48,205 nt of DNA from a virus: the IMG/VR virus record IMGVR_UViG_3300025879_001397, positions 1-48,205 of that record. One strand, 5' to 3'. Positions 4,665 to 44,097 of this stretch are shown in pieces. The first letter of the stretch is position 1. The number at the start of each line of letters is the position of its first letter. Position numbers and translations under genes: made by a program. Below the pieces are notes generated by a model. The model saw only the letters and a list, made by a program, of their open reading frames with translations, made no database searches and had not been told where the DNA came from.

Positions 4665-4870
4665 TTATTTGTTTTAAGTGTAACTAATCTATGTATTTTT
4701 TTAATTGCATCTTCTAATGATGTGGTTTGGAATTTAGGATGCCACCTACCCCAAACCCCAAATAGCCACTTATCATTCCACTCAACGATATAAACCGATT
4801 CTCCCCTTAATTCATGCTGAAGAATTCTATATCGTTTCATTTCTTTATTCCAACGTTTATCGCTTTTCAT
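4661..4870 (-). CDS. Hypothetical protein, 69 aa
   Basis: Basic, Trp-rich protein (VEWNDKWLFGVWGRWH...) ending in a short helix. Overlaps the next gene by 4 nt (ATGA) and the previous by 14 nt. Aromatic content suggests a small beta fold; no family recognised. Confidence 0.65.
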   Translation of the reverse strand: MKSDKRWNKEMKRYRILQHELRGESVYIVEWNDKWLFGVWGRWHPKFQTTSLEDAIKKIHRLVTLKTNK

Positions 4871-23243: not shown

Positions 23244-24455
23244 TTAGTTAATAGCATATTTAGCTTCATTATCATCCCAATCTTTTTTAGACATATAACC
23301 AAATGATTCAACACCTTTAATGGTTAACATCCTATCCGTATTTTTGTTTTTAAACATATCTGCACCACGTTTTGATGCATGTACTTTTATTAATTTTTTA
23401 CCCCTTCTAGTATCAACGTAACTAACATACTCATTGTTAGATTCATCTACCGATTCTTTCATATTTGAGGTAATTGATTCAGGTGCGTTATCTTTAACCC
23501 ATCCAAACAATTTATCTTTCCAAATTTTTTCTGGGAAAATACCACCCTTAGCTTTCTTAACAGGTAGTGAAAGGAAACCCTTTACTTTACCTTTAATCGT
23601 TCTACCCTCATCATCAGTATAGAATACAGTATTCTCAGGGTTGTTTAGAATAACATCTACTCTACCATTCATTCCTTTTGGAAGTGCTTTAGTTATCAAT
23701 CCCCATATTGTGTTAGAAGCACCTTCATGTGTTTTTAAAAGGATATCTTCAGGTACCATCCTAGCTCTACTCTTATTATTTACCATTGCGGTAACGTAGT
23801 TAGTAAGAACCCAAGTTAAGTGAATGTTTTCAGCTTTATATCCAGCGTTCTTTAACATAGGAAGTACTTTAGTAATATCAGTTACATCCTTTGCCGTAAT
23901 ATCAAATAAGATATTTGGAAGTGTTTCTGGGTTATCTTTACCAGTTAATAAGTTAGCCAATGAATTATCTTTGATACCCATTGCTTTAACTAAGATATGA
24001 AGAGCGTATACGTGGTTTGGGTTCTTTAGATTTAAATTTTGTAATTTATACCCATCACTTTCAATTTTGTTTATCAAATCTAAATCCTTTGGTTTGATAT
24101 TTTTACCATATTTTTTAATGATAGTTTTAATATCCAATTTACCCAGCCTATTTAGTACCTGAAGTTGTTTCTTCATTTCATCCACATCTCTAATTTTAAA
24201 AGATGCCGAATCTACAAAGTTTTTTATAGCGAATCCTTTACCACTACCAGCTCCACCAGCCATAAAAACGATTTGACCATATGGTTTACGATTACCATAG
24301 GTAATCAACTTTTCATTTAATATCTCTTCTGTTATTTCTTCGAAAATCATAATTTCATTTTTTCTCTTTTTCTTTCCTGCACAATGTGCCTTTTGACTAA
24401 ATCCTTTTGGGTTAGAACAATCTATTGATTTCTTATATTTCTTACTCCAAGTCAT
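23244..24455 (-). CDS. P-loop kinase with SIDCSNPKGFSQKAHC-type N-terminus
   Basis: 403 aa. Residues 1-33 hold a DCSNPKGFSQKAHCAGKKK motif known as a stand-alone tail in other phage proteins. A helix ending ILNE (45-48) resembles a capsid-targeting leader. The kinase core follows with Walker A GGAGSGKG (67-74), RDVDEMKK and later LLTGKDNPETLPNILFDITAKD, as in zeta-toxin/AAA_33 kinases. The C-terminal 70 residues (YVSYVDTRRGKKL...) form a separate module. It is the last gene of the structural block. Possibly packaged in the head (inference). Confidence 0.75.
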   Translation of the reverse strand: MTWSKKYKKSIDCSNPKGFSQKAHCAGKKKRKNEIMIFEEITEEILNEKLITYGNRKPYGQIVFMAGGAGSGKGFAIKNFVDSASFKIRDVDEMKKQLQVLNRLGKLDIKTIIKKYGKNIKPKDLDLINKIESDGYKLQNLNLKNPNHVYALHILVKAMGIKDNSLANLLTGKDNPETLPNILFDITAKDVTDITKVLPMLKNAGYKAENIHLTWVLTNYVTAMVNNKSRARMVPEDILLKTHEGASNTIWGLITKALPKGMNGRVDVILNNPENTVFYTDDEGRTIKGKVKGFLSLPVKKAKGGIFPEKIWKDKLFGWVKDNAPESITSNMKESVDESNNEYVSYVDTRRGKKLIKVHASKRGADMFKNKNTDRMLTIKGVESFGYMSKKDWDDNEAKYAIN

Positions 24456-24490: not shown

Positions 24491-26089
24491 TTATTTTGTG
24501 GTGATTTTTACACCACCTTGGAAGAATCCATTTGGTACATTCTGAATTGTTGTTGGTTTATCATTTGTATTTTTATTAAACAATACATTTGGTGTACCAC
24601 CCAATAAGCTTCTTCTATCAGTCCAATCATCTGCATTTGATGATGTGTAAATAGCATCACCAGATAAACTTTCTAAGGATGCCTTTATAACCTCAGGCTT
24701 AGAACCAGGATTTTGTTGTAATAACAAAGCAGCCATACCAGCAACTTGAGGAGCTGCCATAGATGTTCCACCAATATTACATTGACGATATGCATTATCA
24801 AAGTTATAAGGTGCATCGGCAAACTTATTTGTATTTGAAGTACAACTCATAATATTGGTTCCAGCAGCATAGATATCAACACCAGGTCCACATTCCGATG
24901 ATTGAACTTTTTGGTCTTTTGTTGCTGAGTTAGCAGTTGAATCTATATTACCAACCATTATTGCTCTATCTGAATATGGGGATGACCCTCTATGATAATA
25001 ACGAGTACCAACATTAGTTACAACAAAATTATCATAATCATCACCACCAGGTATATCTATTTTATTACCTCTATTACCAGCGGCAATAGTTACTACAATA
25101 CCAGCATCAATCAATTCCTCTACATCAGTATCAACCGATGCTATTCTTGTATTGGATACGAAATTTCTACCAGCGTTTGCACCACTATTATATACTAAAC
25201 CATAATTAGATTCTCTATAAGATGAACTACTGGTTGTATTTGAATCTGTATAGGATGTTCCTCTATAAGTTAATGAAGTTACAGAATCAAAATAAGTTCC
25301 ATATCCCCAACTCATATTTACCACAGTTGGTCTTTTATATCCAGTATCAGATTGAATTGGTTTATTGTTGTGCCAACCCTTAATGACATCAAATGCATCG
25401 GATATAGAAATACCAGTACCACTATCACTACTACCTTCCAATCCATTTACTTTTACGAAGTAAACAGCAGCACCTTTAGCTACTCCATGATTCAAGCCAG
25501 CAGCGATGCCAGCTACGTGAGTCCCATGCCCATCTAAATCTCTATTGTGATTTGCATCTTGAGTTCCACTTACCCCACTTAAATTGTACCAATCAATTGT
25601 TAGTGCTCTCTCAACACCATCAGTTCCTTTAAATTCAGGGTGGTCAAACTGTAATCCACTATCTTGAATTACAATATCCACACCACTACCATCTAAATTA
25701 TAAGTATAATCTTCGGATGTAGATGTACTACTACCATAGTTGTTAGTTTTGGATTTATGTCTTATCAATCCCCAATTTAAAAATGCACCACTATCAGATG
25801 TGGTTTTAGTAAAATTTCCAGTTTGAGTTACTCTTGGTTCGATGAAAATATCATCTCTAAATTCAGGTGGTATTTCAACAGCCATAACTCTTTCATCTTG
25901 TCTTATTAGTTCAACCTCTTCTTCTGAAAGAGTGTACCAAGTTTGACGTGGCGAGTTTGGTCTAAGATTTGGAGAATCAACTCTACGATTAGGGATATAT
26001 AGTTTACCCCCATCGTTTTCGTTTTCCATATCATCCCAAAAAGATTGATAATTTACACCTTTGTGTAATATAACGTTGTATGTTTCCAT
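24491..26089 (-). CDS. Subtilisin-like serine protease (S8), virion-associated
   Basis: 532 aa. The S8 triad is in place: Asp143 (IVIQDSG), His188 (DGHGTHVAG) and Ser443 (GGTSMAAPQVAG), with the oxyanion Asn339 (AAGN). About 130 N-terminal residues precede the catalytic domain; they may be a propeptide or virion-attachment part. No signal peptide. It stands 9 nt after the long fibre gene, so it is probably carried on the particle and used to cut fibre precursors or host surface proteins (inference). Confidence 0.92.
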   Translation of the reverse strand: METYNVILHKGVNYQSFWDDMENENDGGKLYIPNRRVDSPNLRPNSPRQTWYTLSEEEVELIRQDERVMAVEIPPEFRDDIFIEPRVTQTGNFTKTTSDSGAFLNWGLIRHKSKTNNYGSSTSTSEDYTYNLDGSGVDIVIQDSGLQFDHPEFKGTDGVERALTIDWYNLSGVSGTQDANHNRDLDGHGTHVAGIAAGLNHGVAKGAAVYFVKVNGLEGSSDSGTGISISDAFDVIKGWHNNKPIQSDTGYKRPTVVNMSWGYGTYFDSVTSLTYRGTSYTDSNTTSSSSYRESNYGLVYNSGANAGRNFVSNTRIASVDTDVEELIDAGIVVTIAAGNRGNKIDIPGGDDYDNFVVTNVGTRYYHRGSSPYSDRAIMVGNIDSTANSATKDQKVQSSECGPGVDIYAAGTNIMSCTSNTNKFADAPYNFDNAYRQCNIGGTSMAAPQVAGMAALLLQQNPGSKPEVIKASLESLSGDAIYTSSNADDWTDRRSLLGGTPNVLFNKNTNDKPTTIQNVPNGFFQGGVKITTK

Positions 26090-26098
26090 TTAGTTTTA

Positions 26099-28750
26099 TT
26101 AATATAGTGCGTTCCATTGGTTACCATCCCAAAAGTATGGTTTAATTGTATTCCCACTACCACTTGATATAATACTACCACTCTGAGGATTTGTTGGAGT
26201 TGTTGTTCTTGGTGTAAGTTGAAGAATATCATCTATTTTTACACCTAATTCGTTACTTGAACTCAACAATAACTCACCTTCAGTTCTAAACTCCATTGCA
26301 ACAGATTCAATATTGGTAGTTGTTGTAGTAATCGTATGAGTATTGATTGTACCACCAACAGTTAAATTATCATCTAACGATATGGAACCAGTACCAATTA
26401 CTGAACCAGTACCAATAGTTATTGTACCCGTTGTAGTAATATCTTCAGTTGTAATTAAAGATTCTACTGTTGCAAAATCAATATTACCAGCACCATCGGT
26501 TTTTAAAACTTGATTTGCAGATGTACCATCCGAAGTTGGGAATTGGATAGCGTTATTAAGTATAAGAGTATCACCTTCCAATCTACCAAATGAACCAGTT
26601 GAATCAGCATTACCGGATAAAGCACCAGTATAAGTAATATTCGAAACAACTATATCATCAACTGTAAGCGTATTGGTTGCATCATTGAATGTTAAATCAG
26701 CTGAACTGGTTATATCACCAGTTGAACCGGCTATTAATACGTGTCCATTAAGTGTTGTGGCTGGTGTTATTTGTGCCGATGAAGATACAATACCAGCTCC
26801 CAATGTTTCTATCTGACCTGATGATGATATGATACCAACAGGAACATTAGTCAAAGTAGAATAATCACCACCACTATCAGCTCCACCAGTCAATGATACC
26901 CAACTACCACTTTTATATCCTAAGAAATCATGCGAATCTAAGTTATATAATATATCACCATTTGAAACCGAAAAAGATGCAGTTACATCATTATCAAACG
27001 GAGTCAACCTAAATGGTGAATCGGTAATCACAACAGCGTTAGATGCTGATAGGTTTAAGTTGTTATTTGAATATATAGTTGGTGTACCAGATGTACCAAC
27101 TGATATTGATTCTGCTGTTATAGCACCAGATGCAGATATTGTACTATTGAATATAGCAGGAGGTCCTACTATGAAATTACCCGTACCATCTTCAATTGAT
27201 GCTGAGAATGAACCAGATGCTATCTTTTGTCCATCAACCCCACCTTCGATTGCCGAACCAGGTATATTGAATAATCCTGCTCCACTACCACTAATAAGTG
27301 AACCACTTTGGATTACTATATTCCCATTTGCTAATATACTACCAGTTGGTGTGTTGATTGTAATACCAACTACACTATTGGCAGTTATCGAATTATCACC
27401 ATCCGATAGTGATGATGCCTCAGTTGCAACAGTACCAATAATTGCGGATGATGGTATCCCAAATAATTGAGCACCACTACCACTAAATGCACCATTAGTT
27501 AGTAAAACACTACCAGTTACTTGAACATCTCTAAATTTCTGAGTTGCAGTGAAATCATTCTCATCTACAAGATTCACACCTTGAATAGCATCTATATTAG
27601 TTTGTAATGCCGAAGCTGATGCATCTAATGCACCTTGTAATACAAAAGTTAAATCACTTATTTGTTGTGAAGATGATATGATGTTAGTACCACTTACACT
27701 AAACCCACCACCTCCAGCTGAACCTGAAAGGACTTGTAGTTGATTTAAATAAGGTAACACTAATGAATTTGCATAATACCTATTGGTTGAACCCTCACTA
27801 ATATCATCGGTAGTTAGAGTTGATAAGTCTATCTGAGAACCATCTATTTGTGCAGATGATGATACTATACCCGTTGGTTTGTTGCTAAGAGTATTCCAAT
27901 CGGCTGCTCCACCACCAGCGTTATCCAATCTAGTTGCAAATGAACCAGAATCAGTTTCATAATCAGATAAACTAACAAAGTTACCAATATCATTTGTAGT
28001 CAACAAATTACCACCATCAGCACCACCAATGGCTAAATCTATTGTATCATTAAATGCATTACCAACGCCAGTAAATGTAAGAGTAGAATTGGATAATGTT
28101 ATATTTGAGATATAATCAGTTCCACCTCCACTACCACCTCCCGCAGCGTTTAACGCATATGAGGAAGTAACAGCGTATGATGCTGATAAAACGGTCATTG
28201 ATGATGTAACACTACTACCTATGAATCCCAACTCAGTAATTTGCTGTGAACCAGATACAGTTCCCGATGGAATTGATACACCACCACCACCACCGGCTCC
28301 GAACCCTGCAGCTGCAACCGATGCGGATACATCCGAATCGAAGTTGGTTATAGTTGATGAACTGATTGAACCACTTAATACATCACTACCACCCAATGCG
28401 GATAATACTGCAGTATTTAAGTTTTGTATTTGAGTAGCTTCGACTTGTTGAGATGAAGTTATCATACCCAAATCAATAACGTGCTCAGTTACTCTAGCAT
28501 TAGTATAATATAGATTTGAGGGATTTTCAGAAATATCACTCGTATCTAATGCGTTAATTGTAGAGTTTACCGTTGATATCTGAGATGTTAATTCAGCATC
28601 AGTTGCTAAATCATCTGTAAGATATGATTGTAATGATGTTAATGTTGTTTTTTGTGTTGTTCCACCATCTACAACGGGAAAAATCGTAGCATCTCTAAGA
28701 GAGCCCGATGTTAGTTCCGTTAGTTCCGATATTTTTACGTTATCTGCCAT
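26099..28750 (-). CDS. Tail fibre / adhesin-like structural protein with repeats
   Basis: 883 aa. It starts MADNVKISELTELTSGSLRD, a virion-attachment type N-terminus common in phage fibre proteins. The body is Ser/Thr/Gly/Asn-rich with repeated 'ISSSxQI' units (VSGSQQI, IVSSSAQI, IISSSQQI, IISSSGQI) spaced irregularly, and Gly-rich breaks such as AGGGGGVSI. C-terminal beta-type segments end in YFWDGNQWNALY. This is a long fibre with a beta-structured shaft and likely sets host range. The same composition makes antisense open frames common here. Confidence 0.82.
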   Translation of the reverse strand: MADNVKISELTELTSGSLRDATIFPVVDGGTTQKTTLTSLQSYLTDDLATDAELTSQISTVNSTINALDTSDISENPSNLYYTNARVTEHVIDLGMITSSQQVEATQIQNLNTAVLSALGGSDVLSGSISSSTITNFDSDVSASVAAAGFGAGGGGGVSIPSGTVSGSQQITELGFIGSSVTSSMTVLSASYAVTSSYALNAAGGGSGGGTDYISNITLSNSTLTFTGVGNAFNDTIDLAIGGADGGNLLTTNDIGNFVSLSDYETDSGSFATRLDNAGGGAADWNTLSNKPTGIVSSSAQIDGSQIDLSTLTTDDISEGSTNRYYANSLVLPYLNQLQVLSGSAGGGGFSVSGTNIISSSQQISDLTFVLQGALDASASALQTNIDAIQGVNLVDENDFTATQKFRDVQVTGSVLLTNGAFSGSGAQLFGIPSSAIIGTVATEASSLSDGDNSITANSVVGITINTPTGSILANGNIVIQSGSLISGSGAGLFNIPGSAIEGGVDGQKIASGSFSASIEDGTGNFIVGPPAIFNSTISASGAITAESISVGTSGTPTIYSNNNLNLSASNAVVITDSPFRLTPFDNDVTASFSVSNGDILYNLDSHDFLGYKSGSWVSLTGGADSGGDYSTLTNVPVGIISSSGQIETLGAGIVSSSAQITPATTLNGHVLIAGSTGDITSSADLTFNDATNTLTVDDIVVSNITYTGALSGNADSTGSFGRLEGDTLILNNAIQFPTSDGTSANQVLKTDGAGNIDFATVESLITTEDITTTGTITIGTGSVIGTGSISLDDNLTVGGTINTHTITTTTTNIESVAMEFRTEGELLLSSSNELGVKIDDILQLTPRTTTPTNPQSGSIISSGSGNTIKPYFWDGNQWNALY

Positions 28751-28803: not shown

Positions 28804-29217
28804 TTACAATCTACCCCACTCCGAAATACTTTCTTTGAGTGGTTTCATACCACCCTTAACTCTGAGTGTATTCAATTGTTTAATTACCTCTTTTTGTTTT
28901 TGAGAGTTCGGTATTGTTTTCAAAGCTTGAGTCATTAACTTATACATCTCAGCTTTCTCAGATGATGATAATGATTCGTTCATCTCTCTAGCATACATCT
29001 TCATCTTAACATCCATATCAACAAACCTCACTTTGATGTTTTGTTGTTTGTAGAAACGATTAAGTGTTCTTACCAAATCACTAATTACCGATTTTACCTT
29101 CTCTTTATCATTCTTATCCGTAACCCAAAAGAACTCTTGTGGAAAGAGTTCTCTAACGATGTTTGCAATCGATATGGTTAGGGATGATTCGTTTAATATA
29201 TCAGTTAGCTTAATCAT
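28804..29217 (-). CDS. Hypothetical protein with (L/I)xNE leader, 137 aa
   Basis: Start chosen at 29217 (MIKLTDILNESSL) because it sits 1 nt after the upstream stop. The N-terminus, a short amphipathic helix ending ILNE followed by S, has the form of a T4 capsid-targeting sequence cut after Glu. An internal REMNESLSSSE and a C-terminal KESISEWGRL repeat the pattern. The rest is basic helices (KEKVKSVISDLVRTLNRFYK). Confidence 0.7.
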   Translation of the reverse strand: MIKLTDILNESSLTISIANIVRELFPQEFFWVTDKNDKEKVKSVISDLVRTLNRFYKQQNIKVRFVDMDVKMKMYAREMNESLSSSEKAEMYKLMTQALKTIPNSQKQKEVIKQLNTLRVKGGMKPLKESISEWGRL

Positions 29218-29218
29218 A

Positions 29219-31081
29219 TTAGTTGATGTATGCATTTAACTCATATCCGTTCTTCATTCCGTAAACCTGAATGTGTAACATCTTTCTTTGTGGTTTACCA
29301 TTTTTAAGAAGTTCTAACGATACTCTTGTAGTTTTACCCACCGATGGTCTCTTTGAGTTCATTCCAACTTTGGTGAACATCTCATCATCCTCTATTTCGT
29401 ATCCTTTCTTTTTAGCGTATACTTCTGCTGCCTCAATTGCATGAGTGTAAGATTTGTGATACACATCATCCGATTCGTTTACTGATTCATATTTAATCAT
29501 ATCAGTATTAAACTTTTCAAAATTCTTCTTTGCCCATTTTACGGCAGATTCGTAAGAATTAAATTTAATTCTGTCTTGTTTGAATCCTTTTTTCTTGTTT
29601 AAGAAATCAATGTAAACTTTTTCTTCGTTTACTAATTCAAACAGTTCATCTCTTGTAAGTTTTCTACCGAATGCCTTTTCAAATGCTTTAATCATTTTTA
29701 CTTCAGTACTAGCATTTCTTCCAAGTAGTTTTAAAACTCTTTTTAATTCATCTTCAGAAAAATTATAGTTTACTTTTTCTTCGTTTACTGATTCATTTAC
29801 CGAATATGAAAGGAATCCTCTATCACCAACGTTTACTTTAATTTTACCCTTAGATAGTTTTTCAACTTCTCTTTTAGTTTTCTGTGGGTCTTGATGTGCA
29901 TGATAAAAGTTATTCTTAATCTTAGAAGATGAACCAGGTTTTTGATTAAAGTTTTTTACCAAATCACCACCATCATACCCAACTCCACCAATATTAACTT
30001 TATTATGACCAGAGTTATAATAAACATCATATTTTGGCTTAGCATCTAATATTACCTGTGTAAGGTATTTGTAATCTGCCTTTTCGTTTAATGATTCATT
30101 AAATCCTTCAATATCCCATTGAATTCTTTGTAATGGATTATCACCTCTAAAGTTTTTCTTTACCCAATCAATAAGTCCAGGTTCATTCTTAGCATTTTGA
30201 GCCATATCGAATGCGTTTCTAGCACCCCCATTACTTGCCATACTATCCAACCATTGTTCATATTTCGTTTGAGTCCATCTTACTTTCTTAACTACTTTCT
30301 TATGTGGACCATCTCCTAATTTTGAAGTAGCTGCAGCGTAAGAACCTGGAAGGAATACACCAACATCCTTACCATTACCATATTTTATTTTTTTTCTGAA
30401 TAACCTTAGTGAATATTCTCCACTTTCTTTTTGTTTAGGTTTTGAAACTTCGCCTTGTCTTTTACCTAATTCAATTTTCTTTTCTTCAGCAGTTTTGGGA
30501 TTTATTTCAAAATGTAAAGATTTTACTAAATCACCAATACCATCAAATTTACCTTCGTTTACTGATTCATCAATTTCAAATTTAGAATATTTGTTTAAAT
30601 CATTTAAACTTTTTAATTCAACTCGTTTACCGTTTGAATCCAATCCATAGATAGTAGCGGTATATTTACCCATTCCATCGGAACGTTTACCTTTTAGTTT
30701 TTGTTTTAATTCAGCACCAGCTCTTCGTTTGTTGATAGATGAATTAAATTCGTTTACTGATTCTAACTCAACACCTTCATATATTGATTTAAGATATTTA
30801 AGGAAGTCTTTATCACTCTTCATATCTCTAAAATCACTATTTGAAAATACTTTCTTTATAAAATCCCTAATATCTTTAGAACTTTGCTTGATTAAATCAA
30901 GTTCAGCTCCTAAACTTTCACTAACTTCATCTATGATTTTAACTGGAACTAAGTGTGTACCAATTTTAGAATCGTATGCCATTATGTAATGAATACCATC
31001 CTTACCCATAAGTTTGAAATCCTTATGTTTCTTATTCCACTCTTTTTTAGTGATTGTATGTTTAATCTTAGGTTTAGCCAT
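29219..31081 (-). CDS. Putative multi-segment polyprotein with ESVNE repeats, 620 aa
   Basis: Six internal sites break the chain: ESVNE 107-111, ESVNE 172-176, ESLNE 329-333, SVNESVNE 427-434, ELVNE 482-486 and ESVNE 532-536. Cutting after the last Glu of each would yield seven pieces of about 111, 65, 157, 101, 52, 50 and 84 residues. Most pieces are Lys-rich and start just after the site. No enzymatic family is recognised. T4 prohead protease gp21 cleaves after Glu in (L/I)-x-E, so these could be internal head proteins made as one chain. An alternative is a repeat-linked structural protein that is never cut. Neighbours on both sides carry single similar leaders. Confidence 0.72.
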   Translation of the reverse strand: MAKPKIKHTITKKEWNKKHKDFKLMGKDGIHYIMAYDSKIGTHLVPVKIIDEVSESLGAELDLIKQSSKDIRDFIKKVFSNSDFRDMKSDKDFLKYLKSIYEGVELESVNEFNSSINKRRAGAELKQKLKGKRSDGMGKYTATIYGLDSNGKRVELKSLNDLNKYSKFEIDESVNEGKFDGIGDLVKSLHFEINPKTAEEKKIELGKRQGEVSKPKQKESGEYSLRLFRKKIKYGNGKDVGVFLPGSYAAATSKLGDGPHKKVVKKVRWTQTKYEQWLDSMASNGGARNAFDMAQNAKNEPGLIDWVKKNFRGDNPLQRIQWDIEGFNESLNEKADYKYLTQVILDAKPKYDVYYNSGHNKVNIGGVGYDGGDLVKNFNQKPGSSSKIKNNFYHAHQDPQKTKREVEKLSKGKIKVNVGDRGFLSYSVNESVNEEKVNYNFSEDELKRVLKLLGRNASTEVKMIKAFEKAFGRKLTRDELFELVNEEKVYIDFLNKKKGFKQDRIKFNSYESAVKWAKKNFEKFNTDMIKYESVNESDDVYHKSYTHAIEAAEVYAKKKGYEIEDDEMFTKVGMNSKRPSVGKTTRVSLELLKNGKPQRKMLHIQVYGMKNGYELNAYIN

Positions 31082-31082
31082 C

Positions 31083-31370
31083 TTATTTTAATTTGTTTGC
31101 TATTGAATATAAATCAAATTTGAATCCCATTCCAGCTCCACTATATGAGTGGTCTACATCAATAGGTAGTTTTAGTTTCTTTTCTAATGCCTTTCCAACA
31201 ATAACACCAATCATATCATCACCAGCTCCTCTAGCTTCAATTGCATTTTGTAATTCATCCAAATCCTTAGATGTTTTAGCAATTGCCGCTAAATGAACAT
31301 CACCCTTTGAAGGCATAATTGTGAAATTAACTGAGAATTTCTTACCACCTGATTTAATATCTATCTTCAT
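31083..31370 (-). CDS. Hypothetical protein, 95 aa
   Basis: Alpha/beta protein (MKIDIKSGGKKFSVNFTIMP ... GMGFKFDLYSIANKLK) of unknown family. A central helix rich in Asp/Glu (KDLDELQNAIEARG) joins two strand pairs. It lies between the repeat polyprotein and the LLSEA-leader protein. Confidence 0.66.
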   Translation of the reverse strand: MKIDIKSGGKKFSVNFTIMPSKGDVHLAAIAKTSKDLDELQNAIEARGAGDDMIGVIVGKALEKKLKLPIDVDHSYSGAGMGFKFDLYSIANKLK

Positions 31371-31388: not shown

Positions 31389-31640
31389 TTAGGATACATC
31401 CATTGCATCATTATGAGTAAAGGTAATACCCTTCTTCTTCAAAGTTTTAGCAAGCTTTTCCATATCATCATAATCGTATCTATATGGTAACTCAATACCA
31501 TATCTATCTTCAAAATCCGGTTTGTACATCTTCTTACCATCCACAACTATCTTATATAGTTTACCACTACGGTCTAAATAAGTTGCATCAATCTTCTTTG
31601 GATTTTTTGCTTCTGAAAGTAATTCTTTTAGTTTAATCAT
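31389..31640 (-). CDS. Small protein with LLSE leader, 83 aa
   Basis: Begins MIKLKELLSEAKNPKKIDAT, a leader-like helix ending LLSE then Ala. The rest is basic (YLDRSGKLYKIVVDGKKMYK ... KTLKKKGITF). One of several genes here with this type of start, consistent with packaged internal proteins (inference). Confidence 0.68.
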   Translation of the reverse strand: MIKLKELLSEAKNPKKIDATYLDRSGKLYKIVVDGKKMYKPDFEDRYGIELPYRYDYDDMEKLAKTLKKKGITFTHNDAMDVS

Positions 31641-31641: not shown

Positions 31642-32178
31642 TTATTTGTGTTTGATGTGTTGTACTCTCCACTTCACATCCTTTGTTCTCAACATTTTCT
31701 TTACAGCATCCACATTCTTTAATGAATCATCTGCAAAGTAAACATCATCATATCCTTCGTTATCAATCTTATCCTCAATCCAATCTGCTTTTGCCTTTGG
31801 ATTATTGTTTTGTAATCCAGTTACAGGTATTTTTTGATTGATACCAATATCTTTTAAGTATTTTGCTACGTGCTTATCTACTGCTTGTGGTCTTGCCGTT
31901 AGAATGAATACACCATCACCTCTATTTTTCTGAATGATTCTCTTTAATACTTTGGTGATTCGTTTCAACTCTTGTGGTTCTTGAACCGAGTAGAAATCTC
32001 TGAAATCATACTCTTCACCTGGCTTCTCATTATAAACTGCAAATTCGGCTGGTGTTAGTCTCTTTTCTTTACCATTAGGTTGTTTAACGTAGATATATGA
32101 TTTAGTAAGAACCAACGTTTCATCAAAATCAAACACTCTTAGTTTTTTTGATTCGGAGAATAAGCTTCGTGCTATCAT
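31642..32178 (-). CDS. HAD-superfamily phosphatase with leader
   Basis: 178 aa from the ATG at 32178. The start at 32202 would lie at the transcription start implied by the promoter at 32204-32235. After MIARSLFSES comes the HAD motif I (RVFDFDETLVLT, DxDxT), motif II FILTARP, a Lys in NPKAKADWI and motif IV YFADDSLKN. It is closest in outline to the phosphatase part of phage polynucleotide kinases/HAD hydrolases. The FSE|S leader again looks like a capsid-targeting cut site. Confidence 0.82.
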   Translation of the reverse strand: MIARSLFSESKKLRVFDFDETLVLTKSYIYVKQPNGKEKRLTPAEFAVYNEKPGEEYDFRDFYSVQEPQELKRITKVLKRIIQKNRGDGVFILTARPQAVDKHVAKYLKDIGINQKIPVTGLQNNNPKAKADWIEDKIDNEGYDDVYFADDSLKNVDAVKKMLRTKDVKWRVQHIKHK

Positions 32179-32203
32179 ATCTTCTTGCTCTTTTATCATC
32201 ATG

Positions 32204-32235: not shown

Positions 32236-32562
32236 TTATTTAGAGTTAGAATTCAAAATTTGATTGTTTAATTCCAACAATCTTCGATTCTCCATCTCTA
32301 AATACTTTACTTTGATTGTCAACTCAGCAACATCCTTAGTTAGTTCCAATATCTTCTCTCTAAGTTCATCCTTTTCTTTTGAACTTTGTTGAAGTAATGA
32401 TTCTAATCTATCGATTCTCTTAGCACAATCATCTTTGATATAATCCTCCTCATCCTTTTTATCTTGCGCACGCTTCTCATAGTATCTCCAAGCCCCAGCG
32501 GACCCCAATACTGTGATAAGTGTAATAATTACTGCGTAGATTGATTCTGGATTCATTATCAT
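32236..32562 (-). CDS. Membrane-anchored coiled-coil protein, 108 aa
   Basis: N-terminal transmembrane helix (about 7-24, SIYAVIITLITVLGSAGAW) followed by a long coiled coil (KRIDRLESLLQQSSKEKDEL ... KYLEMENRRLLELNNQI). The layout is that of an i-spanin or holin-associated protein. It overlaps the upstream coiled-coil gene by 4 nt, downstream of the holin-like gene. Confidence 0.72.
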   Translation of the reverse strand: MIMNPESIYAVIITLITVLGSAGAWRYYEKRAQDKKDEEDYIKDDCAKRIDRLESLLQQSSKEKDELREKILELTKDVAELTIKVKYLEMENRRLLELNNQILNSNSK

Positions 32563-33134
32563 TTTTTGTTTTGTAAGATACTATCTGATTTTTCCATCTC
32601 AGCTCTAAGGTAGTGTTTAGCACCAACTATATAATCTTTTGCCTTTACGATTTTAGTTTGCCACCAATGTGGTAAATCTATCTCAGCGTTCATTTCATCA
32701 AATTCAGCCATCATTTCACCCAATTCTTCAGCATATCTTTCAATAATACTCAAATCAGCTCTTAACATACCTGGCTCATTATCTTGATGTCCTAAATCTA
32801 CATCTTCGAAAACGGATGTATCTAACTCAGTATCGGTTGACATCTGAGATACATACTTATCTTCCATATCCATTAACTGAGATAGATTCTTTTGTCTATC
32901 TTTTATTTTCTTAGTCAAATCCTTTAATACTTTAAGAATTTGCTCTTTTTTCTTTGGGTCTTTTTCTGTTTTATAAGGTTGTACAGCCTTTTTTCTATCA
33001 GCTTCCAACTTTGCGATTTCTTTTTTAACCGCTTCTATTTTCAGAAATAACTTAGGTATTCCTTCGTTGATTAATTGCTCAACAGTGAACCTTCCTTCGT
33101 ATTTTTCAACCAAATGTTCTTCTAATAATTTCAT
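32559..33134 (-). CDS. Coiled-coil protein with LINE leader, 191 aa
   Basis: Charged helices (KLFLKIEAVKKEIAKLEADR, KKKEQILKVLKDLTKKIKDR) suggest a structural or scaffolding coiled coil. The N-terminus ...FTVEQLINEGIPK has another (L/I)NE site near residue 25. It precedes the membrane coiled-coil gene by a 4-nt overlap. Confidence 0.7.
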   Translation of the reverse strand: MKLLEEHLVEKYEGRFTVEQLINEGIPKLFLKIEAVKKEIAKLEADRKKAVQPYKTEKDPKKKEQILKVLKDLTKKIKDRQKNLSQLMDMEDKYVSQMSTDTELDTSVFEDVDLGHQDNEPGMLRADLSIIERYAEELGEMMAEFDEMNAEIDLPHWWQTKIVKAKDYIVGAKHYLRAEMEKSDSILQNKK

Positions 33135-33526: not shown

Positions 33527-34399
33527 TTAAAGTGATTCTGAGAACTTTTGGAGTACTTCCCTCATTATATCATTGGAGTATTTCTTACCATCGTGCTTTA
33601 AATCAAATACTTTTATTTTATCTTTATACGATGGTTCTCTATGCTCCTCATCCTTATCTTCGGTAATGTACAATCCGTTTAATACATATTGTGATATATC
33701 AACACCAACGTTCTTAGCGATACCAGATGCAAACATAGCGAATGTATCTTCTGAACCATATCCTCCAAATTCTTCAGGTATTCCAATTTTATCCCAAAAC
33801 TCCTTTGAGTATAGAGTGTGCATACCACATCCAAACTTAAACACACTTAACTCACCCAAAGTAACTTCGGTTGGTTTTTGAGTAAATGTATTGTTCCAAC
33901 ATTCTTTGGTTCTAAATTGTTGCATCTCTTCATTTCTGAAATTAGGATGTACTAACGGGTCCCAACTACTATCCCACCAACGAGGAATATTCGGAGATAT
34001 TACATACTTTCCACTCACTTGCTCAGATGCCATTAGTTGCATTTTCAGTTGTTGTTCGTGGATTGAGATATCAGGGTCAACAAAGATAAACTGGTCATAA
34101 TCTAATTTGATTACCTCTCTCTTTTGTTGAGTTGTTCCCCATAGAGAATTATCTACTACGATTTGAAGATATGAACGAATACCCTCCATTGACTTGGTAA
34201 ATTTATCAATAAACCATTGTGGTTTCAATTCACTATTTTCCCAATCAGTCAATTCAGGATTTAGATTAAGTGTAACATACATAGTTACATCATCATTATC
34301 ATCCAAATATTTGAATCCCTCTTTATAGTAGGTGATGAATCTCTCAAACATCTCCAACTCCAATGGCATTACATGAGTTACAATTAAGGTTCTTTTCAT
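33527..34399 (-). CDS. GT-A-like glycosyltransferase, 290 aa
   Basis: Begins MKRTLIVTHVMPLELEMFERF. DYDQFIFVDPDISIHEQQ carries a DxD-type metal site (DPD), and FGGYGSEDTFAMFASG is the acceptor/ED region typical of GT-A enzymes. First described here by motif only. Its start overlaps the upstream GT2 gene by 1 nt; it ends the sugar operon. Confidence 0.8.
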   Translation of the reverse strand: MKRTLIVTHVMPLELEMFERFITYYKEGFKYLDDNDDVTMYVTLNLNPELTDWENSELKPQWFIDKFTKSMEGIRSYLQIVVDNSLWGTTQQKREVIKLDYDQFIFVDPDISIHEQQLKMQLMASEQVSGKYVISPNIPRWWDSSWDPLVHPNFRNEEMQQFRTKECWNNTFTQKPTEVTLGELSVFKFGCGMHTLYSKEFWDKIGIPEEFGGYGSEDTFAMFASGIAKNVGVDISQYVLNGLYITEDKDEEHREPSYKDKIKVFDLKHDGKKYSNDIMREVLQKFSESL

Positions 34400-35556
34400 T
34401 AGTTTAGGTTTATTAGTTTGGTTTGATATTCATTCATCTGAACTATCTCTATGGTTAGATTACCCAATGTGAATCTTCCAACCTCACCACTATCTTGTAT
34501 GATTTTAGCCAATTGTTGGATGATTTTGAAATCATCATTGTTTAAAGTTGTACCATCAATCTCTACTAAGATTTCATTGTTCTTTTCGTTATCAAATGGT
34601 TTAACTCTTTCGTTCAAATCCATTAAAGTATTATCCTTTTCAATATATAGATAATCGGTATAGTTGAAATCTACATATGATGTACTTGCCCAAGGTTCCA
34701 ATACCTTTAACAAATTTAAATTACAATTTTTGATGATAAACCCAATATCATATTTAGGTGTAATGATTGGATATTGGAATGAATCATTCTCAATCCAACT
34801 TCCCCATTTTCTTAAATAGTTTCTGGCCGCCTTCTGAGATGCTACTTTGTAGTAATCATCATCTTTCTGAATTTGGTCATTCCATCTATGTCCTCTACAC
34901 GTTAAGTGATATACAAATGAATCTCTACTTTGAATCAGTTCGTAACCAGCCATTATCCATCGTTGGAAGATATCACTATCCTCATATGGGAATGGTGCGA
35001 ATAATGGGTCATGTCCACCAATTCGTTGAAAATCTTCTTTATAAAGAATCCAAGGTGCAAACATACCTTTGGTAGTTTTACCTTTATTTTCACTTTGTGA
35101 TTTTTTAGCAAACTCTTCAAATGCTGGAATATCTAAATCATCAAAATCCAACCCAAAGTTTTGAATAATCTTTTCATTACCAGGTGGATGGAGTGGTGGT
35201 TCGATACGAGTAGCACAAACTACCTTACCCTTATCCAAATGTTTGAGTAGGTTCTCTAAGTAGTTTTCAGTAACAATCATATCAGCATGAATGATACCAA
35301 TAATCTCATTGTTAGCCATTTCTATACCTAAGTCATATAGAATGGTATGCCCTACCCTTTCTTCACTTCGGTGGAGTATTACGTTATCATCCTCACTTTG
35401 AGTTGATTGTAACCACTCATACGTCCCATCATTTGAACCATCATCTAATAGTACCAACTCCAATGTTGGATACCACTTTCTGATTGAAGTGTATGCGTTT
35501 TTAATATGCTGAAAATTGTTATACGTTGGTATAACTAATGTTACGTTATTTACCAT
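34399..35556 (-). CDS. Glycosyltransferase family 2, 385 aa
   Basis: VTLVIPTYNN (5-14) and LLDDGSNDGT (36-45) are textbook GT2. IIGIIHADMIVTENYLENL is the DxD-type region (HADM), and FAPFPYEDSDIFQRW is the catalytic ED motif. The extra 100 C-terminal residues are unassigned. It overlaps the HAD-nucleotidyltransferase gene by 11 nt. Confidence 0.88.
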   Translation of the reverse strand: MVNNVTLVIPTYNNFQHIKNAYTSIRKWYPTLELVLLDDGSNDGTYEWLQSTQSEDDNVILHRSEERVGHTILYDLGIEMANNEIIGIIHADMIVTENYLENLLKHLDKGKVVCATRIEPPLHPPGNEKIIQNFGLDFDDLDIPAFEEFAKKSQSENKGKTTKGMFAPWILYKEDFQRIGGHDPLFAPFPYEDSDIFQRWIMAGYELIQSRDSFVYHLTCRGHRWNDQIQKDDDYYKVASQKAARNYLRKWGSWIENDSFQYPIITPKYDIGFIIKNCNLNLLKVLEPWASTSYVDFNYTDYLYIEKDNTLMDLNERVKPFDNEKNNEILVEIDGTTLNNDDFKIIQQLAKIIQDSGEVGRFTLGNLTIEIVQMNEYQTKLINLN

Positions 35557-36913
35557 AGTTTTCTAAATAATATTTTAAATCTTCAGGTGTACCCAATCCC
35601 CACATTTTTGGAATATCGAATGTACGGATTTCTTTACCACCTTCAATTGCTTGATTGAATACAGGACATACATAGAACTCATCGTTTACTCTGATATCTT
35701 TCTCAATCATTTCCTCTGCATATTTAACAAAGTCAGAACCATTTTTCCAATAGTAATATCCAACCGTTGCAATATCTGAGATTGGGTTCTTTTCAGCTAC
35801 CTCAGTTACGAATCCGTTTTCATCTATTTTAGCAAATGACCATTTTGGGTGAGTTGCTCTAAATGATACAATCCCACCATCTGCATTAGTTTCATTCATC
35901 TTATACATAAACTCAGTTGAATCCCATTCTACGAATTGGTCTGAGTTAGCGAAGAATAATGGATTATCGTTATCGATGTGTTCTTTAGCCAATAATGCCG
36001 TACATGCAGCACCTTCGGTTAAACCATCTACCTCAACAATCTTACAATTTGGTGCAATCAAATTTAAGAGTGTATCTAAGTTGTATTTCTCTCTATGTGA
36101 TTTCTGAACTACAAAGATGAAGTTTGCATCAATATTAAGATTTTCAACCACCAATTGAATCATAGGTTTACCCTCTACATCGATTAGTGGTTTTGGGAAT
36201 GTATATCCTGCGGCTTGGAATCTACTACCAGCTCCAGCCATTGGAATCAATACATTCAATTTTTTATCTACCCACTTTGGAGTATCATTTAATTTTCCCA
36301 TTTCTATTTCAGTTAGTTTTTTAAATATGTTTGTATAGGTTACTTCGGATGGATTTACAACTCGCAATACATGAGCCTTAGAGCGATATGCCGCTTGTAA
36401 TCCATATGGTGAATCCTCTACAATTAGAGTTTCTTCAGGTAAACATCCCATCTTTGAGATTGCTCTCCAATACATCTCTGGATGTGGTTTGGAGTTTTGT
36501 ACATCTTCGTTTGAGATGATGTAATCCATAAACTCCATAATTCCCAACTTTGAAAGTACAGTCAAAACTGTCTTTCTGATTGAATTGGAACATACTGCAA
36601 TCTTATACCCATCTTCAACCAATGCGTTCATTAGGGATTGTAGAGTTTGGTTTGGTTTCAACTCTTTCAACATTTGCAAAGTCAACTTTTGTTTACCTTC
36701 CCAAATCTCTTTATGTAGTTCAGTTGGTAAACCTTTTCGTTCACTCAACATTTCTAATTTCTGATTAGTTTTTAATCCATCATAGGTTGATAGGTGTTCG
36801 TTCCAACTAATTGCGTATTTCTCACCTAAAGCTTTATTAAGTGCATCGTAATGAATGTTTTTGGCTTCAACAAGCACACCATCCAGGTCGTAGATTATTA
36901 ACTTTACTCTCAT
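35546..36913 (-). CDS. HAD phosphatase / sugar nucleotidyltransferase fusion
   Basis: 455 aa. Residues 1-200 are a beta-phosphoglucomutase-like HAD domain: DLDGVLVE (9-16), SNSIRKT, KPHPEMYW and VEDSPYGLQAA are motifs I to IV. Residues 215-455 are a nucleotidyltransferase with VLIPMAGAGSRF (221-232), FPKPLIDV (239-246) and NSDQF. One protein would dephosphorylate or isomerise a sugar phosphate and activate it as an NDP-sugar. Similar fusions occur in bacterial capsule clusters. Substrate unknown. Confidence 0.86.
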   Translation of the reverse strand: MRVKLIIYDLDGVLVEAKNIHYDALNKALGEKYAISWNEHLSTYDGLKTNQKLEMLSERKGLPTELHKEIWEGKQKLTLQMLKELKPNQTLQSLMNALVEDGYKIAVCSNSIRKTVLTVLSKLGIMEFMDYIISNEDVQNSKPHPEMYWRAISKMGCLPEETLIVEDSPYGLQAAYRSKAHVLRVVNPSEVTYTNIFKKLTEIEMGKLNDTPKWVDKKLNVLIPMAGAGSRFQAAGYTFPKPLIDVEGKPMIQLVVENLNIDANFIFVVQKSHREKYNLDTLLNLIAPNCKIVEVDGLTEGAACTALLAKEHIDNDNPLFFANSDQFVEWDSTEFMYKMNETNADGGIVSFRATHPKWSFAKIDENGFVTEVAEKNPISDIATVGYYYWKNGSDFVKYAEEMIEKDIRVNDEFYVCPVFNQAIEGGKEIRTFDIPKMWGLGTPEDLKYYLENYGK

Positions 36914-37668
36914 AATACCAAATATTCTTGCTTACCACCTTTATGAAACCAAGGTCTACTCCGTATACCAGCCCATGCATCTAACATAGCCCCAACATCA
37001 ATAGCAACCTTACCATAATTGTGTTTTAAATATGAAACATAATCTTTTTGAATCCCACAACCTACTAAAACCACATCGGATTTTATATCTCTAAATGAGT
37101 TTATGAACTCTTCCCTATTCCTTAAATTTACATTCATAGGATGTGTTGTAAATGTAACATCGGCATCAAATAACTTACTCAAATTTTTACTCTCTAATCT
37201 CTCAGTATTTGGTGATATGATATTCAAACTTCTACCTTGTAGGATATCTTTGAAGTTTTCAGGTTTACCAAATTCTTTAGTTCTTGATAACATATGGTCA
37301 CATACCTCCAATTCATACTTAATTCCATTATCTTTTAAGAAAGTATCATCAATAGACCAAACTTCCTTTGTATAATAGATACTCTTAGCTATATCATTAG
37401 TATCATCCATTATACCAATAACATCACTATGTTTTATTGCATTTAGTATGATAGAACTAGCATCAGTATATAGTTGTTCAACTTCATTTGGATATTTATA
37501 TCCCCAATTTCTACAACTTCTTTCTTGATGTTGTGGAGTTGAGTTTTTGTTCAACATTCTAATTTCACCATCACCAAAACGTGATAATGCAAATGGAGTA
37601 TTTGTTTTGATTTTATCTTTTATCAAATCAATTGTTTCCGTAATGGTTATAGTGGGTTGTAAATACAT
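36910..37668 (-). CDS. GT-D fold glycosyltransferase
   Basis: 252 aa. SRFGDGE (29-35) is the signature of GT-D (DUF1792) glycosyltransferases, in which the DxE pair binds the donor. The middle has DVVLVGCGIQKDYVSYL, and the end has VGAMLDAWAGIRSRPW, as in the family. A promoter lies directly upstream (-7 box 37673-37680), leaving almost no 5' leader. No later Met can serve as start without losing the active site. Confidence 0.86.
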   Translation of the reverse strand: MYLQPTITITETIDLIKDKIKTNTPFALSRFGDGEIRMLNKNSTPQHQERSCRNWGYKYPNEVEQLYTDASSIILNAIKHSDVIGIMDDTNDIAKSIYYTKEVWSIDDTFLKDNGIKYELEVCDHMLSRTKEFGKPENFKDILQGRSLNIISPNTERLESKNLSKLFDADVTFTTHPMNVNLRNREEFINSFRDIKSDVVLVGCGIQKDYVSYLKHNYGKVAIDVGAMLDAWAGIRSRPWFHKGGKQEYLVL

Positions 37669-37672
37669 TCTA

Positions 37673-37704
37673 CAAATATACTAAATTATTTTTAATAAAA
37701 CAAA
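37673..37704 (-). promoter_or_regulatory. Bacteroidota-type promoter, nearly leaderless
   Basis: Minus strand: TTTG (37704-37701), 20 bp, TATATTTG (37680-37673), then TAGA and the ATG. Transcription starting 5-7 nt after the box would begin at or next to the ATG of the GT-D gene. Confidence 0.78.
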
Positions 37705-38492
37705 TGTTTATAATCATTATCCAACCAAGGTGCTGAACTTACTAATCTATCGGGATTGAAATTGATTCTATCATTGTAGTGTATTTTACCCAACTCCTCA
37801 ATTTGTGTATCTGATATCAGATTGAATCCGTAATCGATTTTACGATTTACCGATAATGCGTAATCTATAAACTTAAAGTGCCCACCATAAAGTGTTCCTT
37901 TAATATTCACTCTAGCATTTGGAATTCCCCAAGCATCTGCCGCAATCAATCCATGTAAAGATGATGATAGGATGAATTCCACATCTAATATATCTTCGAT
38001 GAACTCATGTAACCCAGCACAAATATCAATAATCTTCACACCTTGTTTTTTTAGATTTTCAACTTGAACTTCATTCTCATCTGCGTAATGAGGAATCAAT
38101 CCATATTTGTACTTTGGTTCTTTTCTCTTATATTCGGTGATATATGGCATCAGAAGAGCAGGGTCTCCATATACATCAGGACACTCAATACCTCTCATCA
38201 TAAGTTCGTTTCGAGTTAGAGGTCCTCTTACAGCAAATACCTTTTGTGGAACCCCTGATATATGATTTTGGTCAATTGCTCCACCACCCCATACTAAATC
38301 ACCATTTCTTAGATGTTGTAGAACCGAACCTACTACGATTAGTTTATTGGATTCACCTGAGTTATTGGTTAGTTCTATATTCTCACTTTGAGAAATTGTC
38401 TTAACTAATGGATGTGATACTATATCTCCCCAATTCTTTGAACGATGTGGGTGTTGTGGATTGCCATTGTTGTATTCAAATACTTTCATCAA
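37692..38492 (-). CDS. Polysaccharide pyruvyltransferase-like protein
   Basis: 266 aa. NWGD (20-23), KVFAVRGPLTRNEL and FILSSSLHGLIAADAWG are the conserved stretches of the CsaB/WcaK family; this enzyme uses PEP to add a pyruvate ketal to a sugar. Slightly shorter than typical (about 300 or more aa). It overlaps the next GT2 gene by 4 nt. A negatively charged pyruvylated glycan would be the outcome (inference). Confidence 0.84.
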   Translation of the reverse strand: MMKVFEYNNGNPQHPHRSKNWGDIVSHPLVKTISQSENIELTNNSGESNKLIVVGSVLQHLRNGDLVWGGGAIDQNHISGVPQKVFAVRGPLTRNELMMRGIECPDVYGDPALLMPYITEYKRKEPKYKYGLIPHYADENEVQVENLKKQGVKIIDICAGLHEFIEDILDVEFILSSSLHGLIAADAWGIPNARVNIKGTLYGGHFKFIDYALSVNRKIDYGFNLISDTQIEELGKIHYNDRINFNPDRLVSSAPWLDNDYKHLFY

Positions 38493-39325
38493 TCAAAATC
38501 TTTAATCATACCATATTCATCAAACATTGGAGGTCTACCCCATTTTGATATCCACTTTCTCATATTAGCTTGTTCTGAGAGAATTTGTCTTTCCGAACTT
38601 CTACCACCATTTTCTTCCAATCGATGTGAACCTCTTGCTCCGAAATGCCAAACCAACGATGTGGTTGGTAGGATGAATCTAAATCCACTTTGTAACATTC
38701 GTAAAAACAAATCCATATCATCATAAGATGCCGGTGCAAATAGTGGGTCATTACCACCAATCTCATCCCAATGTTCTTTCTTAATCAACCCACTTACACC
38801 TTCACCTTTTGGAATCTCAAAATCATTCTCCGAAGTGAATTGTTCGGCATATTTATCAAAGAACTCTGAGTTAAAATCGTTATGATATGCTCCAAATACA
38901 TCTTTTGGAACTACAACAGTACCTGGTCTACTTTGTGAGTTAGGAAACATCTGAGGTTCTATCCTATGTGAATTTACCCATAACTTTTCATTTGGATATT
39001 TGTTATGAGTATCCATCAAAGACTTATCCCAATTAGGTGTTACATAGAAATCTGAATGTAAGAACATAATGTATTCAGTTTTCACTCTATCAGCACAAAA
39101 GTTCATACCACCACCTATACCAATTGGTTGTTCGTTCTTATCTATGTAATACTCTAAGTTGTATCTTTCTGAGTTTTCTTCTAACCACTCATCAGTTCCA
39201 TCATTACAATTTTCAGCGTGAATTATGAACGGAGAATCTTTGTAGTAAGAATTCTTACGAACACTATCTACTGCTATTTTAAGATACTCTAAGTTATTAT
39301 ATGTTGAAATACAAAATGTTATCAT
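38489..39325 (-). CDS. Glycosyltransferase family 2, 278 aa
   Basis: Start chosen at 39325 (MITFCISTYNNLEYLKIAVD), just after the upstream stop at 39328. MFLHSDFYVTPNWDKSLM is the DxD-type region (HSDF), and FAPASYDDMDLFLRML the catalytic acidic motif. A paralogue in outline of the 34399-35556 enzyme (shared NDPLFAP motif). Confidence 0.86.
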   Translation of the reverse strand: MITFCISTYNNLEYLKIAVDSVRKNSYYKDSPFIIHAENCNDGTDEWLEENSERYNLEYYIDKNEQPIGIGGGMNFCADRVKTEYIMFLHSDFYVTPNWDKSLMDTHNKYPNEKLWVNSHRIEPQMFPNSQSRPGTVVVPKDVFGAYHNDFNSEFFDKYAEQFTSENDFEIPKGEGVSGLIKKEHWDEIGGNDPLFAPASYDDMDLFLRMLQSGFRFILPTTSLVWHFGARGSHRLEENGGRSSERQILSEQANMRKWISKWGRPPMFDEYGMIKDFD

Positions 39326-39327
39326 TC

Positions 39328-40107
39328 TTAATATTTTAAAGGTGCTCCCCAATTACTCTGCATTACCATTCCCAAATATTGTTTATGGAAGTGCTCTTCT
39401 TTCCAACCCAATTGTTTATATAATTGATATTGCCCAACAAAGTGAAATTCTTTAAATAATGGCGATGTTGGCATCATTGGAGTTCCCATTGCCAATGCAC
39501 CTTCACCATACCATTTTAGTTCGTTTGGATGTTTCTTAAATAATACATCCAATCCCCATTCAGTATCTAACCATTCCCAAACTTTAGTATCCCAAATATA
39601 AGGGGATATTCCATAATGGTATATTTTACCTTCTCTACCAAAGTGAGCCATAATAGATTTATATTCAGCTTCATGTCCTTTTCTTACATCATAAGTTTGT
39701 AACTTTGGGAATCTATCTACGAATTCATAAAAATCATCCCTCTCATGCATTATCATATACGGAATATCCTCAGTATATAAGAAATCCGTAATATAAAAAT
39801 CTTTGAAGAAGTATGCATCTGAATCAATACACACATAGAATCTACAAAGGTTAAGTTTGTAAACCAATGATTTAACGAATTGCTGACCTACCCAACCATT
39901 ATGATTTGAAGTTATTGAATCATCACTCAGTATCTCGGTATAGTGTGGGATATTGGATTTAAACATTTCTACATCTTCAGGCGGTACTGAGATGTAATAT
40001 GGGATGTTATCTCTGTTATATAGTTGAATACTCTTAGATAGTTCAATACATCTCCCCAAGTCTCCTCTATAACTCTTTGTGAATATTATTAGGTTTTCGT
40101 ATTTCAA
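39328..40107 (-). CDS. DUF6492-like GT-A glycosyltransferase
   Basis: 259 aa. Begins MKYENLIIFTKSYRGDLGRC. FYVCIDSDAYFFKDF holds a DSD metal-binding motif, with GQYQLYKQLG later. Sequence resembles DUF6492 proteins, which are GT-A-like. It overlaps the upstream gene by 41 nt. Confidence 0.74.
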   Translation of the reverse strand: MKYENLIIFTKSYRGDLGRCIELSKSIQLYNRDNIPYYISVPPEDVEMFKSNIPHYTEILSDDSITSNHNGWVGQQFVKSLVYKLNLCRFYVCIDSDAYFFKDFYITDFLYTEDIPYMIMHERDDFYEFVDRFPKLQTYDVRKGHEAEYKSIMAHFGREGKIYHYGISPYIWDTKVWEWLDTEWGLDVLFKKHPNELKWYGEGALAMGTPMMPTSPLFKEFHFVGQYQLYKQLGWKEEHFHKQYLGMVMQSNWGAPLKY

Positions 40108-40663
40108 AATTTGGTAACTCTTTTAGTTTTTTATTTACTTTATTGATTTTATCCATATAAGGCTTCACGTCATCAATGTATTCCGAAGTTGTTCTTTGCT
40201 TAAATGGTATCATTTCCACTTCATAAATTTCTTCAAACTCTTTTTTATAATCACCAACCACATCGGTATTGATAATTACCATTGGGAAATGTGGATTTCT
40301 TGTCCAATTATCAATTTGAGAATCGATATTATCTAACCACACTCCAATATCAAACGGAACTTCTTCACTACCTTCCATTAGTTTTTGGAAGTTGTGATAC
40401 ATCCCTCTTTTGATTTGAGATGAAATTGCAATCCCCACATCTTCGGTGTAACAAAATATACCACTACCTACCATCACATCTAAAGGTCTTACATAATGAC
40501 AAGCCTTCATTTCATATGCCGTATTGTAAGTGGTAAATTTATCCTTTATACAATCTCTGATGTAGTTAGAACGACATCCACCAAATGAATTTATCCATAC
40601 ATCAATTGGCTCTCGTTGGAATAACTCTACAATGATATCCTCTGAAAAGTTATGTACTCCCAT
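40067..40663 (-). CDS. Sulfotransferase-like or glycan-associated protein, 198 aa
   Basis: PIDVWINSFGGCRSNYIRDC (about 19-38) resembles a phosphosulfate-binding loop after a beta strand, and FPMVIINTDVVGDY the second strand of P-loop-like transferases. Two helices and a polar C-terminus follow. It sits between GT genes. A sulfotransferase-related protein is possible but weakly supported; it may also be a generic phage glycan protein. Confidence 0.5.
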   Translation of the reverse strand: MGVHNFSEDIIVELFQREPIDVWINSFGGCRSNYIRDCIKDKFTTYNTAYEMKACHYVRPLDVMVGSGIFCYTEDVGIAISSQIKRGMYHNFQKLMEGSEEVPFDIGVWLDNIDSQIDNWTRNPHFPMVIINTDVVGDYKKEFEEIYEVEMIPFKQRTTSEYIDDVKPYMDKINKVNKKLKELPNFEIRKPNNIHKEL

Positions 40664-41938: not shown

Positions 41939-42003
41939 AATATATTGGTTTATAGATAAGTATATAAAATTTTGTTTTTCAAATTGATACTATGGATGTA
42001 ACA

Positions 42004-43769: not shown

Positions 43770-43775
43770 AACTTC

Positions 43776-44096: not shown

Positions 44097-44097
44097 C

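Follow-up and report, generated by a model that had tools for sequence, protein, structure and literature searches.

The window, a stretch of 48,205 nucleotides, is an IMG/VR fragment that comes from a T4-like phage and carries clamp-loader genes of the T4 type. The open reading frame predicted at 29219-31081, for which no strand had been given, exists and lies on the minus strand; its 620-aa product is referred to here as P0001, and its gene is 100% identical in a 71-kb contig of the same phage. P0001 consists of eight small modules (cassettes), joined mostly by an in-frame 15-bp seam that encodes ESVNE. The segments between the seams are mutually unlike, as had been claimed. The original prediction was also correct in placing motifs at residues 107-111, 172-176, 329-333, 482-486 and 532-536; its remaining site, 427-434, is part of YSVNESVNE, in which only residues 430-434 belong to the repeat. 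Pfam and PHROG profile searches of P0001 matched no family. The gene, its cassettes and its seams are as follows.

29219-31081, minus strand: cassette polyprotein P0001, 620 aa, from the list of open reading frames
30926-31081, minus strand: cassette s1, residues 1-52, the N-terminal domain; an internal cassette in loci L131, L097, L133 and L072
30749-30925, minus strand: cassette s2, residues 53-111; homologues in L301, L302, L071, L109 and L022
30749-30763, minus strand: seam 1, ESVNE, residues 107-111, GAATCAGTAAACGAA
30554-30748, minus strand: cassette s3, residues 112-176; found in 39 viral loci
30554-30568, minus strand: seam 2, ESVNE, residues 172-176, GAATCAGTAAACGAA
30083-30553, minus strand: segment s4, residues 177-333
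30083-30097, minus strand: seam 3, ESLNE, residues 329-333, GAATCATTAAACGAA
29780-30082, minus strand: segment s5, residues 334-434
29780-29794, minus strand: seam 4, ESVNE, residues 430-434, GAATCAGTAAACGAA, with a diverged SVNE just before it
29624-29779, minus strand: cassette s6, residues 435-486; also within the head-core gene of L005, L006 and L007
29624-29638, minus strand: seam 5, ELVNE, residues 482-486, GAATTAGTAAACGAA
29474-29623, minus strand: cassette s7, residues 487-536; in L068 and L154 it follows N-terminal parts of head-core type
29474-29488, minus strand: seam 6, ESVNE, residues 532-536, GAATCAGTAAACGAA
29222-29473, minus strand: cassette s8, residues 537-620; in L067 it forms a lone gene with a leader

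P0001 starts with MAKPKIKHTITKKEW and has no T4-type N-terminal capsid-targeting leader, which speaks against classing it simply as a T4 internal protein. Such leaders are present in its neighbours in the window and in the lone s8 gene of L067. Next to P0001, the window fragment has no recognisable portal, protease or capsid gene, and gp21 was found neither in the window nor in the 71-kb sister contig, both of which are fragments. The T4 late-promoter string TATAAATA showed no excess. The neighbouring genes of cassette or leader type are listed below.

23244-24455, minus strand: P-loop kinase (zeta-toxin-like) with a leader-like ..EEILNE
28804-29235, minus strand: 143-aa protein with the T4-type leader MIKLTDILNE
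31083-31370, minus strand: lone 95-aa protein, the C-terminal cassette of the L120 polyprotein
31389-31640, minus strand: 83-aa protein with the leader MIKLKELLSE
31642-32202, minus strand: HAD-type phosphatase behind a leader-like ..SLFSE
32559-33134, minus strand: 191-aa protein with the leader ..QLINE and a GHQDNEP cassette common to phage immuto

In the kinase gene, a diverged seam, ESVDE (23442-23456), precedes a C-terminal cassette; the P-loop kinase is also a segment of the L002 polyprotein, and the window gene is the free version. Elsewhere, the window encodes a subtilisin-type serine protease (24491-26089; Peptidase_S8, 1.5e-32; phrog_9158), which adjoins a gene for an 883-aa Ser/Gly/Thr-rich, repetitive and tail-fibre-like protein (26099-28750). 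Apparent glycosyltransferase genes form a large block at 33527-45483, and the region 3762-6262 holds genes that resemble nucleotide-sugar epimerases (phrog_540 for 3762-4664).

The seam as protein and as DNA

P0001 contains five occurrences of ES[VLI]NE and six of E[SL][VLI]NE, for which 5000 shuffles gave means of 0.00 and 0.01, respectively. The looser [VLI]xE was not enriched in P0001 (12 occurrences against 9.1 in shuffles), and the enrichment therefore belongs to the longer motif. In the DNA, the six sites are copies of a single 15-nt string, GAATCAGTAAACGAA, exact at four sites and with one mismatch at the other two; the window holds no further copy with fewer than two mismatches. All four ESVNE sites are exact copies, which has a probability of about 1e-6 given the codon usage of the window.

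The string was also sought as DNA, without protein information, in 2.9 million viral contigs. Among the matches listed, 35 of 120 stretches contained between two and six copies, all on the same strand, compared with a second copy in none of the 120 stretches listed for a control scan in which the five codons were re-ordered. In the 80 loci listed, 54 of 58 single-copy matches are read as ESVNE in the longest open reading frame, and wherever several copies lay within one reading frame they were in frame. Loci fetched via protein similarity only contained polyproteins with 26 ESVNE sites, 13 of which were the exact 15-mer, where codon usage predicts 4.9% (p 5e-11). In an alignment of 64 polyproteins, ESVNE was practically the sole consensus; the homologue comparison that had been proposed thus found conserved sites and variable segments between them.

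Two further polyproteins (L022:9680-11848 and L024:9599-11854) have seams that read ESVVNE or ESVVTE, and strings like GAATCAGTAGTTACTGAA are repeated inside the gene. These within-gene repeats suggest that seams are homogenised separately in each lineage.

Whole modules are exchanged at the seams

Whole modules are exchanged among phages, with breakpoints exactly at the seam. Copies of the same cassette in different proteins are 75-95% identical in DNA, and they occur in shuffled order and also singly behind a leader. Across 47 cassette pairs in different contexts, median DNA identity was 0.89 inside the cassette and 0.93 per 15-nt seam, and it was at the chance level of 0.32/0.33 in the 60 nt beyond the seam. 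Seven pairs show exchange individually for the window cassettes s3, s6 and s7.

The pattern extends beyond the window. From 199 non-redundant reading frames, 673 segments were obtained that include 88 multi-member families, and in 48 of these 88 two or more different neighbours occur on the left and likewise on the right. In an unbiased all-against-all comparison, internal homology breakpoints of the two partners fell together at [VLI]NE in 210 cases on the right (10 expected) and in 51 on the left (11 expected), with little or no excess at [VLI]xD or [VLI]xK. Many internal borders of distant polyproteins are not close to ESVNE. In the syntenic polyprotein of L022 and L024 the first three cassettes and the last are as in P0001 and the middle is entirely different. 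At the position of s6, the core gene has no cassette in G004, one in L006 and more in L005 and L007; the backbone genes of the head cluster keep their place while the modules are exchanged. The modular organisation that had been proposed for the polyprotein is therefore borne out, in that its cassettes recur in other proteins and in other orders. Segments had also been expected to occur singly elsewhere, and s8 does so in L067, as a lone 99-aa gene behind the leader MISLKSLLME.

Single cassettes, rather than the full polyprotein, were submitted to structure prediction, and both s3 (pLDDT 82.6) and s8 (pLDDT 88.3) were predicted to be compact a/b units. Searches of the PDB by sequence and by fold gave no significant match for either, and no bacterial homologues of s3 were found. 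Values of dN/dS of about 0.05-0.17 place s3, s6 and s7 under purifying selection. Among the fetched loci, homologues of s4 and s5 came only from the same phage. A tblastn search of cultured phages with P0001 and its cassettes returned only Melnitz (s8) and immuto (the GHQDNEP cassette). Only five Pfam families were detected in the 64 polyproteins, with no peptidase among them; recognisable pieces of other polyproteins are a zeta-toxin-like P-loop kinase, a cytidylyltransferase and DUF3008 heads.

In a viral structure library, the best match of the s8 model was A0A6J5LTH6 (E 0.023, not significant; probability 1.00), a protein of 1134 aa from an uncultured phage that bears the name Anti-CBASS protein Acb1. 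As a lead, this protein is perhaps a cassette polyprotein with an anti-defence domain. NMNAT/cytidylyltransferase-like proteins are fused to long segment arrays in L302:16358-19900, in Melnitz (L011:8791-10743) and in Mel-JY01 (L059:5227-7146), and NMNAT-like proteins have been reported from several cyanophage virions (PMC10665884). Immuto, a Flavobacterium phage in culture, encodes an 841-aa cassette polyprotein that is annotated as hypothetical (gp79, YP_010114604.1; L058:4335-6860 of NC_055915.1) and has two seams, ESVNE and ESLNE, at residues 483 and 528, together with the GHQDNEP cassette. It is the most suitable model for work at the bench.

Linkage to head genes and fit to the head protease

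The 35 multi-copy stretches, which were picked by the DNA string only and have a mean length of 8 kb, were inspected for T4-type head genes (TerL, portal, gp21, MCP or gp22). Such genes were present in 31 of the 35 listed stretches, compared with 3 of 120 control stretches (p 7e-25), and gp21 itself in 21 of the 35, compared with 1 of 120. Co-occurrence of gp21 with seams over whole contigs was dropped as evidence (16 of 29 contigs against 8 of 20 controls, p 0.39); because T4-like phages abound, the two rates do not differ, and only local linkage discriminates. The gp21 gene (PF03420) lies beside cassette genes in L007, G003 and G004, and in G004 the polyprotein is between gp21 and the scaffold gene. 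In L005, L006 and L007, s6 lies within a core-type gene downstream of the portal gene, and in L007, where the contig is long enough to show it, gp21 follows this core gene. The closest cultured match of the L007 gp21 is that of the Microcystis phage Mel-JY01 (L059; PP395634.1) at 63%, with immuto at 53%; the stated cyanobacterial host of Mel-JY01 may deserve a second look.

This location bears on whether the array could be a core protein of the gp67/gp22 type, the gp21 fragments of which leave the head, with the cassettes serving as core bulk or shape. The presence of cassettes within a core gene between portal and gp21 is consistent with such a role, as is the precedent of T4 gp22, gp67 and gp68, which are cut to fragments, with scaffold/core fragments exiting the capsid (PMC5694885). 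However, the cassettes are folded and conserved domains that evolve under purifying selection, a P-loop kinase is among them, they also occur as lone genes with leaders, and one cassette protein has been reported in virions. A degraded scaffold is therefore unlikely.

The protein in question is gp160 of Synechococcus phage S-CREM2, which was detected by mass spectrometry of the virion, with a coverage of 13%, together with the protease and gp154; the authors note that some virion-associated proteins may be carry-over (PMC10665884). gp160 contains two of the cassette families of these polyproteins (57% over 37 aa and about 30% over 156 aa), and gp154 starts with a T4-like leader, MKNFSSFLTE. 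As a distant relative, gp160 lends indirect support to the protein class, rather than to P0001.

The seams were compared with sites of known gp21 cleavage. T4 gp21 cuts Alt at ITE and LTE, and the core proteins into fragments (PMC5694885). The six sites of P0001 suit gp21, as had been proposed, in having the pattern (L/I/V)-x-E, and the MCP cut site of the clade aligns with that of T4: the cut pair E65-A66 is invariant in the five MCPs, with L, V or I at P3 in 5/5, and the residues before E65 are V-S, I-S, V-K or L-D (L-T in T4); the site in immuto is VSE. Among seam variants that differ by one or two bases, P3 was V, I or L in 101/103 and P1 was E in 101/103. P5, which has the same codon as P1, was E in 92/103, i.e., 11 changes compared with 2 at P1 (p 0.02), and changes at P3 were conservative in 27/29 cases, with one half expected.

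These constraints bear on two further explanations. If P0001 were an uncut multidomain virion protein, injected whole, the seams would be flexible linkers; polyvalent proteins are multidomain and some are transferred whole (PMC5512222). A linker, however, would need neither V/L/I at P3 nor Glu at P1, the pattern of the gp21 sites in capsid proteins, and the lone-gene versions of cassettes follow a leader that ends in the same type of site, which makes this explanation decidedly improbable. The other possibility is that the 15-mer acts at the DNA level, as a recombination joint or site, with ESVNE a mere by-product of no proteolytic meaning. Conservation as DNA beyond codon usage and the exactness of the breakpoints would fit that account. 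It deserves very little credence, because the variants are constrained at P1 and P3, the ESVVNE/ESVVTE lineages alter the length of the DNA and keep V-x-E, and the seam, which is linked to gp21, is in frame in almost all cases.

Phage proteases of the phiKZ type cleave themselves near the C-terminus. The C-termini of gp21 contain SLNE in immuto (L058:14989-15570) and VINE in G003 (L301:9339-9971), each followed by a short tail; these are possible self-cleavage sites of the seam type, and are offered as a lead.

A probable modular head-cargo polyprotein

P0001 is probably a head-cargo polyprotein of a T4-like phage, processed by gp21 at sites that would also be the recombination seams. Cleavage by gp21 at the seams and packaging of the modules are well-supported inferences. 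During prohead maturation, a gp21-type protease (V/L/I at P3, Glu at P1) would cut after the final Glu of each seam. The modules would be freed inside the head as separate small proteins, would stay with the DNA, and would probably be ejected into the host in the manner of T4 internal proteins. This last step, and a function of the cassettes in host takeover or anti-defence, are suggested tentatively. Annealing or recombination at the seams would allow cassettes to be inserted, deleted or swapped; the swaps could be in frame because all joints have the same DNA sequence, and each newly made joint would automatically be a protease site.

Several known systems resemble parts of this arrangement. 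The T4 internal proteins IPI-IPIII and Alt have a leader that is cut by gp21, and are ejected; the internal proteins are small and diverse, and IPI has an anti-defence role. Like the neighbours of P0001 and the lone cassettes, they have a gp21-type site after a short leader, but each gene encodes one leader and one cargo, whereas P0001 has many cargoes and no leader. The T4 core proteins gp22, gp67 and gp68 share the neighbourhood of the cassette genes of relatives and contain several gp21-type sites per protein, and the cassette-bearing core gene of relatives occupies the place that corresponds to T4 gene 67. Unlike the cassette polyproteins, these core proteins are fixed rather than modular, and we know of no description of a DNA-level seam or of cassette exchange in them.

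The polyvalent proteins of phages and conjugative elements (Iyer et al. 2017, PMC5512222), which contain many domains and are presumed to accompany the DNA on delivery, are analogous to P0001 in having many domains in one polypeptide. They have known enzymatic domains, often with an embedded metallopeptidase (PMC5512222), whereas in proteins of the P0001 type nearly all domains are unrecognised, all joints are alike, and the head protease is presumed to do the cutting. The lack of any Pfam match to an enzymatic domain or peptidase in P0001 speaks against its being a polyvalent protein. Among the ejection proteins of phiKZ and SPN3US, the head protease (gp175/gp245) cuts after Glu, in some proteins at more than one site (PMC10052503). 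Cleavage after Glu, sometimes at several sites, is as proposed here for P0001, but in those phages it mostly removes N-terminal propeptides from one mature protein, rather than dividing a string of cargoes.

No description of such a cassette system was found in the open-licence literature. Polyproteins are familiar from RNA viruses; to our knowledge, exchangeable strings of cargo that are cut by the head protease have not been described for tailed phages. The broader proposition, which we regard as evenly balanced, is that this is an undescribed modular cassette system, in which a 15-bp in-frame seam is both a recombination joint and a head-protease site. T4-like phages would use it to rebuild a multi-cargo virion polyprotein by swaps, and most of the 389 segment families, which are unknown, would likely be host-takeover or anti-defence proteins that are delivered pre-made. 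If cleavage is confirmed, the dual-use seam may be a category of its own.

The packaged proteins of T4 include an inhibitor of a restriction enzyme. If the proposed system is right, searches with the seam would bring to light hundreds of packaged phage proteins that are as yet unknown. The system would also explain how injected proteins can diversify fast with frame and processing intact, and would point to a modular means, provided by nature, of placing proteins of choice in phage heads.
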